Source of the DNA: Verrucomicrobiota bacterium
Lineage (GTDB): Bacteria > Verrucomicrobiota > Verrucomicrobiia > Chthoniobacterales > JAFAMB01
DNA: 44,037 nucleotides
Direction: 5' to 3'
Assembly (NCBI GenBank): GCA_019247695.1
Contig: JAFBAP010000008.1
Span: 1-44,037, forward strand
This document shows positions 5,735 through 40,085 of this stretch, piece by piece; positions within the stretch are counted from its first letter, which is position 1; every line of letters starts with the position of its first letter. The translations under genes and the position numbers were made by a program. The notes under the pieces were generated by a model, which saw only the letters and a program-made list of their open reading frames with translations, searched no databases and was not told the DNA's origin.

Positions 5735-6124
5735 ATGTCGGATCCCAACCAACCACCTGAACGCGAACCCCTGATCCGCGCGATCGCGATGCCCGCTGAC
5801 GCCAACCCGGCAGGCGATATTTTCGGCGGCTGGCTAATGTCACAAATGGACCTTGCCGCGGCTAACGCCGCCGCCCGTCGTTCCCGGGGCCGCTCCGTCA
5901 CCGTGGCGGTAGATGGCATGGTGTTTCATGAGCCGGTCTTTGTCGGGGACGAGGTGAGCCTTTATGCGACCGTGTTGCGAGTCGGCCGGACGTCGATGAC
6001 CATTCGAGTTGAGGCTTGGCGGCGGCGACTGGTTGCCGAGACTCAGCACAAGGTGACGGAAGCCACCTTCACCTTTGTGGCCATCGATGAAAATCGAAAA
6101 CCGCGGCCGGTACCGCCCGCGTAG
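5735..6124 (+). CDS. Acyl-CoA thioesterase, YciA-like hotdog protein
   Basis: The 129-aa single-hotdog-domain protein is predicted to hydrolyse acyl-CoA thioesters in the cytosol. The diagnostic stretch NPAGDIFGGWLMSQMD at residues 24-39 holds the conserved Asn/Asp and the hotdog helix; TVAVDGMVFHEPVFVGDEV follows, as in the acyl-CoA thioester hydrolase (YciA/BFIT-like) family. ATG 5735 gives MSDPNQPP, close to the family length. Upstream in-frame codons run through the intergenic repeat and are rejected as start. No clear Shine-Dalgarno sequence is seen because the repeat lies directly upstream. Substrate chain length cannot be read from the sequence. Confidence 0.88.
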   Translation: MSDPNQPPEREPLIRAIAMPADANPAGDIFGGWLMSQMDLAAANAAARRSRGRSVTVAVDGMVFHEPVFVGDEVSLYATVLRVGRTSMTIRVEAWRRRLVAETQHKVTEATFTFVAIDENRKPRPVPPA

Positions 6125-6217
6125 AAGTTATGGTCCGAGCGAACAATGCCGGCTGGGCCAGGCGGCTCGGCTTGCATGCAATCCTTTTTTCACCGTGTTT
6201 GCCCCCGAGAAAATTTT

Positions 6218-11870: not shown

Positions 11871-13163
11871 ATGACGCATCGGCTCCAAAGTTATCTCGGC
11901 TATTCGTACCCGGCGCAACTTGCGGAATTCGTAAAGCGGGAGTGGCCGGAGCAGGCCCGTAAAGCCCAGCCGAGCGACGTTCACCTTCGACAGTTGCTCG
12001 ATGCTGCTTACCACGCCAGCCTGTTGCGCGAGGAACAGCGGCCCGTCACCTTTCGCCTGCTTTTCGGCGGTCCGGACGAACTGCCCGTGGATGCCGGTCC
12101 GCCAACGGGCCTTTTGCCGATCAAACTTGACCGGCCCCGCCCGTTCAATGAACAGGAAGTGCGCCGTATCTCAGTGGCAGCGGATTTTTTCCGATCGCTC
12201 ATCGCGGTATCGGCCGATCCGGATAATGAGCTGCGCATCTGGGGCATTCTGGTTTCGGGCACGCGATGGGTCAACCAAGTGGACGGAGGCCGATTCATTG
12301 ACGGGATATTGCCGCTTCGCTTGGTGGTGCAGGCGCCTGCCCCCGGTCGCTTGACGGTTTGCCTTGGCCAGCAACGGATCGCGGCGTTGACCGGCGGACG
12401 CATGCAGGGCTTGGCGTTTGACCTTTTCCAATCGCAGTGGCTCGTCGACGCCTTTGCCAACGTCAGGAAAAACGCGCTCCGGTCGTTCTTCGACAAAACG
12501 AGCGGCTACCCGCCCGTGCCGCCCAACAGCGATTTCATGCGGGTAATGTCGCAGAACGTGCTGCGCCGTGCGCTAAGCGTGGTGCGCAATTCCAAACACG
12601 GCGGCACTCTGGTTTTCATCGAACCCGAGGAGGAAGCTGAGCTCAAGCGTGAGAACGGTCCGCTTCGCTTCAAGTACCGCATTGCCGATACGGGGGCGCG
12701 GACGCGTTACCAAGCCCTGTTAAGGCAGGCCGTCATTCGTCTGCAGGAACTGGTTCACCAGGAAAAGCTGCGCGAGATCAGCTGGGCTGAATACCAACGC
12801 GTTCCGGATGAGGAATTGAACCGGCTGGACGAGGCGTTTTTTGAATTCGCGCACTTCCTCGCTGACCTGATGGCAGTGGATGGCGCCCTGGTGGTCACGA
12901 AACGCATGGAACTCGTCGGTTTCGGCGCCGAGTTGCGCGCGGAAGCGCCGGGCCTGGCCAGCGTGCGCCGCGCCCTCGACGTGGAGGCAACCTTGTGGGC
13001 CAAAGAAGCGCTGGACGACGTCGGCACGCGTCACCGCGCTGTCTACCGCCTCTGTGAGGAACATTCAAACTGCGTCGCGATCGTGATCTCCCAGGACGCG
13101 GCCGTTCGCTTCGTCAAAAACCACAACGGTGCGGTGACGTACTGGAACCAGCTATCGTGGTGA
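11871..13163 (+). CDS. Protein with C-terminal diadenylate-cyclase-like (DAC) domain
   Basis: A 430-aa cytosolic protein. The first ~300 residues are unfamiliar, with a beta-rich part (about 130-180) that could bind a ligand. Residues ~290-430 resemble the DisA_N/DAC fold: FLADLMAVDGALVVTKRMELVGFGAEL places a DGA motif at 337-339, and VGTRHRAVYRLCEE places T386-R387-H388-R389. VAIVISQDAAVRFVKNHNG then matches the strand that in CdaA reads VAIVVSEETG. In true cyclases DGA and RHR hold ATP and metal. DAC-derived non-catalytic sensor domains are also known, so activity is open. No transmembrane helix is seen, unlike CdaA. The stop is followed at once by the GGGTAACG repeat. The gene has a 122-bp leader after the SDR. 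Confidence 0.7.
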   Translation: MTHRLQSYLGYSYPAQLAEFVKREWPEQARKAQPSDVHLRQLLDAAYHASLLREEQRPVTFRLLFGGPDELPVDAGPPTGLLPIKLDRPRPFNEQEVRRISVAADFFRSLIAVSADPDNELRIWGILVSGTRWVNQVDGGRFIDGILPLRLVVQAPAPGRLTVCLGQQRIAALTGGRMQGLAFDLFQSQWLVDAFANVRKNALRSFFDKTSGYPPVPPNSDFMRVMSQNVLRRALSVVRNSKHGGTLVFIEPEEEAELKRENGPLRFKYRIADTGARTRYQALLRQAVIRLQELVHQEKLREISWAEYQRVPDEELNRLDEAFFEFAHFLADLMAVDGALVVTKRMELVGFGAELRAEAPGLASVRRALDVEATLWAKEALDDVGTRHRAVYRLCEEHSNCVAIVISQDAAVRFVKNHNGAVTYWNQLSW

Positions 13164-13486
13164 ACGGGTAACGGGTAACGGGTAGCGGGTAGCGGGTAGC
13201 GGGTAGCGGGTAACGGGTAACGGGTGGCGGGTGACCGGCGGGTGCATTTGCCGAGGTTGCTTGCACCTGTTCTCAGGACGGTTGAGCTGTCGTTGCCCCG
13301 GAGGGATCGCCGGGACAAAAATAGCTCAACAAACTTGAAAACCGGTGTAGGCAGCGGCGCTGCCCGAACGATTGTTGTTCCTCCCATTTCAAGAAAGGTT
13401 GCGAACGCCGTCAACGCGTTACCCGTTACCCGTTACGCGCTACCCGTTACCTGTTACCCGATTTGACGCTGGGAGCCTATGCTCCC
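13164..13486 (+). repeat. Paired GGGTAACG/CGTTACCC repeat filling the carA upstream spacer
   Basis: No gene lies between 13164 and 13500. From the first base after the upstream stop, a short tandem of GGGTAACG/GGGTAGCG units runs to about 13232. Its reverse complement, a CGTTACCC/CGCTACCC tandem, occupies 13415-13460, so the two arms can pair around about 180 bases. Inside the loop lie smaller stems (GTTGAGCT near 13281 with AGCTCAAC near 13321). After the right arm, GGGAGC-CTAT-GCTCCC at 13471-13486 forms another hairpin 14 bp before carA. The unit recurs at 29305-29439. Confidence 0.85.
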
Positions 13487-29304: not shown

Positions 29305-29439
29305 GGTGACGCGTAATGGGTAACGTGTAACGAGTAACGAGTAACGCGTAATAGTTGCCGCCATTATCCTGGTGGGTTACACGACGCCGTAGCCCATTAC
29401 CCGCTACCCGCTACTCGTTACCCGCTCCTCGTTACTCTC
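29305..29439 (+). repeat. Inverted GTAACG repeat directly before ispA
   Basis: The left arm at about 29305-29353 is built from GTAACG-type units (GGTGACGCGTAATGGGTAACG... GAGTAACGAGTAACGCGTAAT). The right arm at about 29391-29439 is the inverse (CCCATTACCCGCTACCCGCTACTCGTTACCCG...). The arms bracket about 37 bases. The unit is the same as in the element at 13164-13460. The right arm ends one base before the ispA ATG, leaving no Shine-Dalgarno sequence. Confidence 0.82.
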
Positions 29440-38415: not shown

Positions 38416-39261
38416 ATGGAGTGGCAGATGCGCGGATCGAGCCTCGATTTCACCAGGTCGGGCCAGCTCATGGGCATCCTTAACGTTACGCCCGACTCGT
38501 TTTCGGACTCCGGTAGCTTTCTTGATTTTGCCGCCGCCATGGCTCACGCGCGACGGCTGATCGCGGAGGGCGCGGCGGTGATCGACGTCGGCGGCGAATC
38601 CTCCCGGCCGGGCTCCGATCCGGTCAGCCTCGAGGAGGAACTCCGGCGCGTCCTCCCGGTGATACGCGCCCTGCACGGGGAGTACCCTCACCAGCTCATC
38701 TCCATCGACACGTACAAGGCGGAGACAGCCCGGCAGGCGTTGGACGCTGGTGCCTCCATCGTCAACGATATTTCAGCCCTGCGCGCCGATCCCCAAATGG
38801 CAGCGGTGGTGCGCCGTTATGGTGCCGGGGTGATTTTGATGCACATGCAGGGCACACCGAAAACCATGCAGCGTGCGCCGCGCTACGATGACGTGGTGAG
38901 CGAGGTCATCCGCTTTCTCCGGGAGCGCCGGGACGGCGCGATCGCGGCCGGAATCGAACCTGGCTGCATCGCACTCGATCCGGGTTTTGGATTCGGCAAA
39001 AACCTGGCGCATAACCTTGCCCTGCTCCGGTCAGCCGGCCAGCTCCGGTCGCTGGACCGGCCGTTGGTAGCCGGCATTTCCAAAAAGTCAACGCTGGCTC
39101 GTTTGCTGGGCGATCCGGGCCTGGCAATGTCTGAACGCGTCTGGCCTGGCGTTGCTTTTACCAGCTACCTGCGAGAACATGGGATAAAACTCCTGCGGGT
39201 CCACGAGATCAAACCACACCTCGAAGCCTTGCGGATGACGGAGGCCATCCTTGCCGGTTAA
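38416..39261 (+). CDS. folP: Dihydropteroate synthase
   Basis: The 281-aa TIM-barrel enzyme joins pterin pyrophosphate and p-aminobenzoate in folate synthesis; it is the sulfonamide target. MGILNVTPDSFSDSG (about 25-40) is the signature, followed by VIDVGGESSRPGS, ISIDTYKAETARQAL, GASIVNDISAL, ILMHMQGTPKTM, ALDPGFGFGKN and VAGISKKSTLARLLG. ATG 38416 directly follows a repeat and has no ribosome-binding site; ATG 38428 (MRGSSLDF) is an alternative. The stop shares a base with cdaA (TAATG). Confidence 0.95.
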   Translation: MEWQMRGSSLDFTRSGQLMGILNVTPDSFSDSGSFLDFAAAMAHARRLIAEGAAVIDVGGESSRPGSDPVSLEEELRRVLPVIRALHGEYPHQLISIDTYKAETARQALDAGASIVNDISALRADPQMAAVVRRYGAGVILMHMQGTPKTMQRAPRYDDVVSEVIRFLRERRDGAIAAGIEPGCIALDPGFGFGKNLAHNLALLRSAGQLRSLDRPLVAGISKKSTLARLLGDPGLAMSERVWPGVAFTSYLREHGIKLLRVHEIKPHLEALRMTEAILAG

Positions 39262-40085
39262 TGGATTTAATCACAACTTTCATCCGGAATAATTGGAACG
39301 GCGGGATCGAGATCCTGCTGCTGACCGTTGCCATTTATTATGCCTACCTTTATTTCCGAGGCACTCGCGGCGCGCGGATCCTGACCGGGGTGGCGATCGT
39401 CTTCATCGTCCTTACCCTTGTCTCACAACTCCTGAACCTGACGGTGATCAGCTGGCTGCTGCGCAGCCTTTCAGCGTTCATCGCGATCGCCCTTGTCGTG
39501 ATTTTCCAACCTGAACTGCGCCGGGTGATGACGGAACTGGGGAGTGGCCGGCTGTTCTTTACGTCTGCGACGCAGAAAAAGGAAACCATCGACATCATCA
39601 CCGAAACGGTCTTCGAATTGTCCAACCGCCAGGTCGGCGCCTTGATCGCGATTGAGCGTGACACCGGCATCCGGAGCTTTGCCGAGAGCGGGGTGAACCT
39701 CGACAGCGAAATCTCACAGGAATTGCTTCTGACGATTTTCTACCCTAAAACCCCGCTGCACGATGGCGGCGTAATCATCCGCGAGGAACGAATCCAGGCC
39801 GCGGCTTGCGTTTTCCCGGTGAGCCAGCGCGAGGACCTTGACCGTACGTTCGGCCTGCGCCACCGCGCCGGGCTCGGCATCTCCGAAGAGTCGGATGCCG
39901 TCGCTATTGTCGTTTCGGAGGAGACCGGGCATATTTCCCTTTGTTACCGTGGCCGGATCGAACGCGGCTTCAAAGTCGGCCAATTTGAAAAGAGGCTCTC
40001 CGAGCTTCTCCTGCAGGTCGACGATCAAACCGAAACAGGTTCGGAAAAGACGCTCTCCCATACGGAGGCCGGTCCGGTCGACTGA
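39261..40085 (+). CDS. cdaA: Membrane diadenylate cyclase CdaA
   Basis: The 274-aa enzyme makes c-di-AMP from two ATP. Three N-terminal membrane helices lie at about 16-34, 38-60 and 64-84. The DAC domain (about 100-255) has FELSNRQVGALIAIERDTGI, LHDGGVIIREERIQAAACVFPVS and VAIVVSEETGHISLCYRGR. The ATP motifs differ slightly from the textbook: D168-G169-G170 instead of DGA, and L199-R200-H201-R202-A-G in place of TRHRAA. The RHR triad and DG are intact, so activity is expected. It is followed by the cdaR-like stub with a TGATG junction, and then by glmM, the standard operon. Confidence 0.95.
   Translation: MDLITTFIRNNWNGGIEILLLTVAIYYAYLYFRGTRGARILTGVAIVFIVLTLVSQLLNLTVISWLLRSLSAFIAIALVVIFQPELRRVMTELGSGRLFFTSATQKKETIDIITETVFELSNRQVGALIAIERDTGIRSFAESGVNLDSEISQELLLTIFYPKTPLHDGGVIIREERIQAAACVFPVSQREDLDRTFGLRHRAGLGISEESDAVAIVVSEETGHISLCYRGRIERGFKVGQFEKRLSELLLQVDDQTETGSEKTLSHTEAGPVD

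Follow-up and report, generated by a model that had tools for sequence, protein, structure and literature searches.

A soluble DACNV-DAC protein of Verrucomicrobiota is a putative second diadenylate cyclase and appears to be kept in a genus without the usual CdaA

Domain organization of the DACNV-DAC protein

Within the window, which denotes the whole 44,037-nucleotide stretch of DNA analysed here, an open reading frame with an ATG start at positions 11871–13163 of the forward (+) strand encodes a soluble putative diadenylate cyclase of 430 amino acids, referred to below as the DACNV-DAC protein. Residues 30–127 (11958–12251, +) were identified by Pfam as PF21751, described as "Probable sensor domain DACNV", with a score of 90.4 bits (E = 9e-26; cut-off, 27). 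Towards the carboxy-terminus, residues 365–417 (12963–13121, +) match the DAC domain PF02457 with 27.8 bits, just above the cut-off of 27 (E = 2e-6); this match spans the second half of the model only, and the chain ends 13 residues past it (430 versus 417). It is the second DAC match of the genome, the first being CdaA.

The DGA motif is located at residues 337–339 (12879–12887, +), GTRHRA at residues 385–390 (13023–13040, +) and SQD at residues 407–409 (13089–13097, +), exactly where a preliminary description had read DGA, GTRHRA and an S-x-D strand. Both DGA and RHR are needed by DAC enzymes, in which they bind the ligand (PMC8573169). The highest 19-residue Kyte–Doolittle mean was 1.44 for the DACNV-DAC protein, compared with 2.52 for the CdaA of the window, indicating the absence of a membrane segment. 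Together, the intact motifs, the DACNV match and the low peak hydropathy agree with the preliminary description, which had proposed a soluble DAC-like protein without membrane segment, equipped with its own amino-terminal input domain and distinct from CdaA; the HMM comparison that it had suggested returned the above-cut-off DAC match. Its account of the first ~300 residues as unfamiliar did not hold, as residues 30–127 correspond to DACNV and the DAC core probably begins at ~222.

Extent of the DAC core

Searching the solved structures with the family profile yielded a CdaS-type DAC (PDB 2fb5) as the top match, with an insignificant E-value of 0.28 and no structure matched below this value; the amino-terminal domain of this protein differs from that of the DACNV-DAC protein. 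The alignment is in register at the HGG segment (residue 243 onwards) and at the GTRHRA segment. As both are aligned in the right order, we place the DAC core at residues ~222–418, its start thus probably lying near residue 222 rather than 290. This start would comprise a helix and the HGGTLVFIE strand (residues 222–250; 12534–12620, +), where the 2fb5 alignment is weak (3.0 bits) and where R239 and G244 are invariant in an alignment of 22 sequences. The spacing between the HGG strand and DGA would amount to ~93 residues versus ~42 in CdaA, and in the alignments residues 251–330 (12621–12860, +), harbouring the invariant K268-Y269, form a stretch ~50 residues longer than its CdaA counterpart. 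An hhalign comparison of the DACNV-DAC profile with CdaA aligned 27–60 columns, confined to the motif segments and with low probability, and the AlphaFold2 models were unusable, with a mean pLDDT of 36 (single-sequence) and 41 (7-sequence).

The weakly matched first half of the DAC domain counts against a cyclase. Such a divergent domain, with its ~50-residue extra stretch and its marginal Pfam match, would also suit a DAC-derived sensor of nucleotides or c-di-AMP, which would preserve the fold and the ligand pocket but no longer catalyse, binding instead causing a change in the DACNV region; the retained motifs could also be there merely to bind a nucleotide or c-di-AMP. The conservation pattern described below and the gene content of one genus speak against this alternative, which we regard as unlikely, albeit the strongest of those considered.

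Conservation and distribution of the family

Full-length homologues on two Hymenobacter plasmids are named "putative sensor domain DACNV-containing protein" by NCBI, and the name DACNV was reportedly introduced, probably, in Galperin's 2023 article in J Bacteriol, 'All DACs in a row'. The preliminary description had considered a possible new DAC class, for which the divergent core and the lack of a solved-structure match at E <0.28 could be adduced. However, as Pfam (PF21751) and NCBI already have names for it, the architecture is known, and we consider a genuinely new class very improbable: judged by its domains, the DACNV-DAC protein is a member of an already named family. We found no functional study of any DACNV-DAC protein in the literature searched.

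For the conservation analysis we aligned 22 sequences from one Verrucomicrobiota class, with identities down to 32%; Pfam matched DACNV in all 22 of these members and DAC in 17. V336-D337-G338, G352, E354, G385-T386-R387-H388-R389, Y392-R393 and S407-Q408-D409 are invariant, as is the K268-Y269 pair, so that the DG and GTRHR motifs, whose loss among relatives would have spoken against the DAC assignment, are kept throughout. The third letter of DGA varies between A, C and V within the family, V being found in one sequence. The invariance of the key D, G, R, H and R residues in all 22 sequences argues against a sensor devoid of catalysis. Furthermore, comparison with the closest relative over residues 147–430 (NG86) gave a dN of 0.135 and a dS of 0.854, corresponding to a dN/dS of ~0.16 and indicating purifying selection on the gene. 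The Hymenobacter (Bacteroidota) plasmid members share 35–37% identity with the window protein across nearly the full length, and one plasmid copy retains VDGA, GTRHRA and SQD as well.

The window belongs to a Verrucomicrobiota genome, its closest named relatives being metagenome-assembled genomes of this phylum. Regarding the phylogenetic spread of the amino-terminal region, a phylum-wide sample of 388 genomes contained 10 with DACNV, all belonging to the class of the window, and 372 with DAC; DACNV additionally occurs on the Hymenobacter plasmids. Each sampled genome of the window's family contains at least one DACNV copy and often two or three matches, including some fragments; a single copy is present in the genome of the window. 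In the tree, the window copy falls among its family's main copies; a second paralogue group, the family f54 copies and those of the wider class lie outside this group, with moderate support for the deeper forks.

The second paralogue group of the window's family (L043–L048, L051) carries DGC in place of DGA with GTRHR and SQD intact, and a very distant paralogue (L050, genome G391) with DGL and GMRHR is a candidate for lost catalysis. Both the DGC group and this distant paralogue can be cited in favour of the catalytically inactive sensor. On a Hymenobacter volaticus plasmid (L104, 12004–13246) the DACNV-DAC protein is annotated as two adjacent genes, and this copy may therefore be split or frameshifted.

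Genomic neighbourhood

Downstream of the DACNV-DAC gene lies carA, an arrangement common to the window's family only. The flanking genes of ~20 members otherwise vary, including heparinase-like, M3 peptidase, P-type ATPase, subtilase and other genes, and no conserved operon was found apart from downstream carA, in the family of the window, and an AlkZ-like gene that some relatives carry. Likewise, the neighbours of these ~20 members revealed no conserved signalling partner, and a search of the window's own genome found no c-di-AMP-class riboswitch.

The AlkZ-like DNA glycosylase gene is located between DACNV-DAC and carA in L003 (5588–6859), L004 (7272–8546), L005 (7287–8546), L063 and L065, starting at or just past the DACNV-DAC stop, with some candidate start codons overlapping it; at the matching place in the window it is missing. 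Here, intergenic arrays of the 7-base units CGGGTAA/CGGGTAG are found at 13165–13232 (+) and 13413–13460 (−), facing each other in opposite orientation between the DACNV-DAC gene and carA, as well as at 29314–29420. The units have 19 matches in the window compared with 0 expected.

DAC genes are linked to CBASS in some genomes, and mutating one such DAC abolished defence (PMC13092281). Together with the two copies on Hymenobacter plasmids, this could point to a cyclase that shares the fold but produces a di- or oligonucleotide other than c-di-AMP and serves a different pathway, for example defence. However, none of the 22 members matched a defence family in PADLOC, the neighbours of ~20 members included no cGAS-like cyclase or CBASS effector and no conserved defence gene, and the patatin beside one Hymenobacter copy has an Omp85 domain and thus looks like an outer-membrane protein. 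A different product is therefore improbable, also in view of the c-di-AMP-type phosphodiesterase retained in the CdaA-less genus described below. A defence role as such was rejected, based on the absence of PADLOC matches (22 members), of CBASS neighbours and of a phage homologue of the Hymenobacter copy.

The CdaA of the window

The window's CdaA (39261–40085, +; CdaA_N and DAC by Pfam) lies in a normal folP-cdaA-glmM locus. In place of DGA and GTRHR it carries DGG (39762–39770) and GLRHR (39852–39866). The preliminary description had stressed that the DACNV-DAC protein keeps residues that this CdaA has altered. As a functional argument this fails, because DGG and GLRHR are found in 30 of the 30 CdaA sequences collected from the order, including those of genomes free of DACNV (G417, G407, G420, G414, G429, G432, G314 and G422). 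A decaying CdaA rescued by the DACNV-DAC gene was rejected for this reason; the substitutions represent a lineage trait rather than compensated decay.

A genus without detected CdaA

Three genomes of genus g109 (family f54), namely G258, G423 and G433, contain DACNV-DAC at completeness values of 97, 89 and 92%, respectively. No CdaA match was found in any of them, these being metagenome-assembled genomes in which absence is never certain. G258 gave no Pfam DAC match at all at E 0.001, because its DACNV-DAC protein scores below this threshold. The gene order points in the same direction: in G258 (L106) folP at 185–1015 is followed directly by glmM from ~1037, with no cdaA, and in G433 (L132) folP ends at 6089 and glmM starts near 6198, running off the contig, again with no cdaA in between. 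In G423, neither folP nor cdaA is located upstream of glmM. In the genomes G409 and G404 of the sister genus, cdaA lies between folP and glmM.

A PgpH-type 7TMR-HD phosphodiesterase is kept in G258, G423 and G433 and is also present in the window's genome. PgpH was detected in 14 of 15 genomes with CdaA versus 7 of 15 without a DAC match (Fisher p = 0.014, uncorrected for phylogeny), showing that it tends to disappear along with DAC genes. With CdaA missing and both DACNV-DAC and PgpH kept in g109, active c-di-AMP synthesis is the best explanation, and the simplest reading is that the c-di-AMP of this genus is supplied by DACNV-DAC. A pure sensor would not explain why the only detected DAC-like gene of g109 is retained together with PgpH. 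The preliminary description had left the choice between a second c-di-AMP source and a nucleotide sensor; based on g109 and PgpH, the former gains and the latter loses support.

Discussion

Based on these data, we propose that the DACNV-DAC protein is a soluble, DACNV-regulated cyclase making c-di-AMP beside CdaA, a reading to which we assign a probability of roughly two in three. The protein would carry a DACNV input domain at its amino-terminus, followed by a middle region and, at the carboxy-terminus, a divergent DAC domain. The latter would bind two ATP molecules through DGA and RHR in a head-to-head dimer and convert them to c-di-AMP, its activity depending on what the DACNV region may sense. 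It would thereby constitute a second, regulated c-di-AMP source alongside the membrane-bound CdaA, with turnover presumably carried out by the PgpH-type phosphodiesterase of the genome, while in genus g109 it appears to be the sole remaining c-di-AMP synthase. Between an enzyme and a catalytically dead sensor, the evidence favours the enzyme.

With other DACNV-DAC proteins (PF21751 and PF02457) the window protein shares the domain order, the length of 400–450 residues, the DGA/GTRHR/SQD motifs and the soluble character, and no feature distinguishes it from this family. CdaA (DacA) resembles it in that its DAC domain contains DG and RHR motifs, but has an amino-terminal membrane domain and a fixed folP-cdaA-glmM locus, whereas the DACNV-DAC protein is soluble, carries DACNV, has a longer DAC core and lacks fixed neighbours. 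Consistent with this, Pfam and hydropathy analysis found in this protein neither a CdaA_N match nor a hydrophobic segment, and its score for the TIGR00159 equivalog was 10.9 bits versus a cut-off of 188.8. Like the DACNV-DAC protein, DisA is soluble, features a DGA without preceding His and has SQ rather than SE after RHR. Unlike DisA, the DACNV-DAC protein lacks a carboxy-terminal DNA-binding module, as Pfam gave no match to a DisA-type DNA-binding domain after DAC in the 430 residues.

The new point, and the part worth following, is genus g109, which appears to be without the usual CdaA and to have kept DACNV-DAC as its only detected DAC-like gene. That DACNV-DAC is a functional soluble c-di-AMP synthase with a core ~50 residues larger, replacing CdaA as the only diadenylate cyclase of g109, is a proposition for which we see even odds. 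If true, a cytosolic sensor-cyclase would have taken over the control of c-di-AMP in this genus from the membrane-bound enzyme encoded at the glmM locus. The CdaA-less genus offers a clean natural test of whether divergent DAC proteins can make c-di-AMP and replace a CdaA that is conserved elsewhere, and of the signal to which a cytosolic sensor-cyclase answers.
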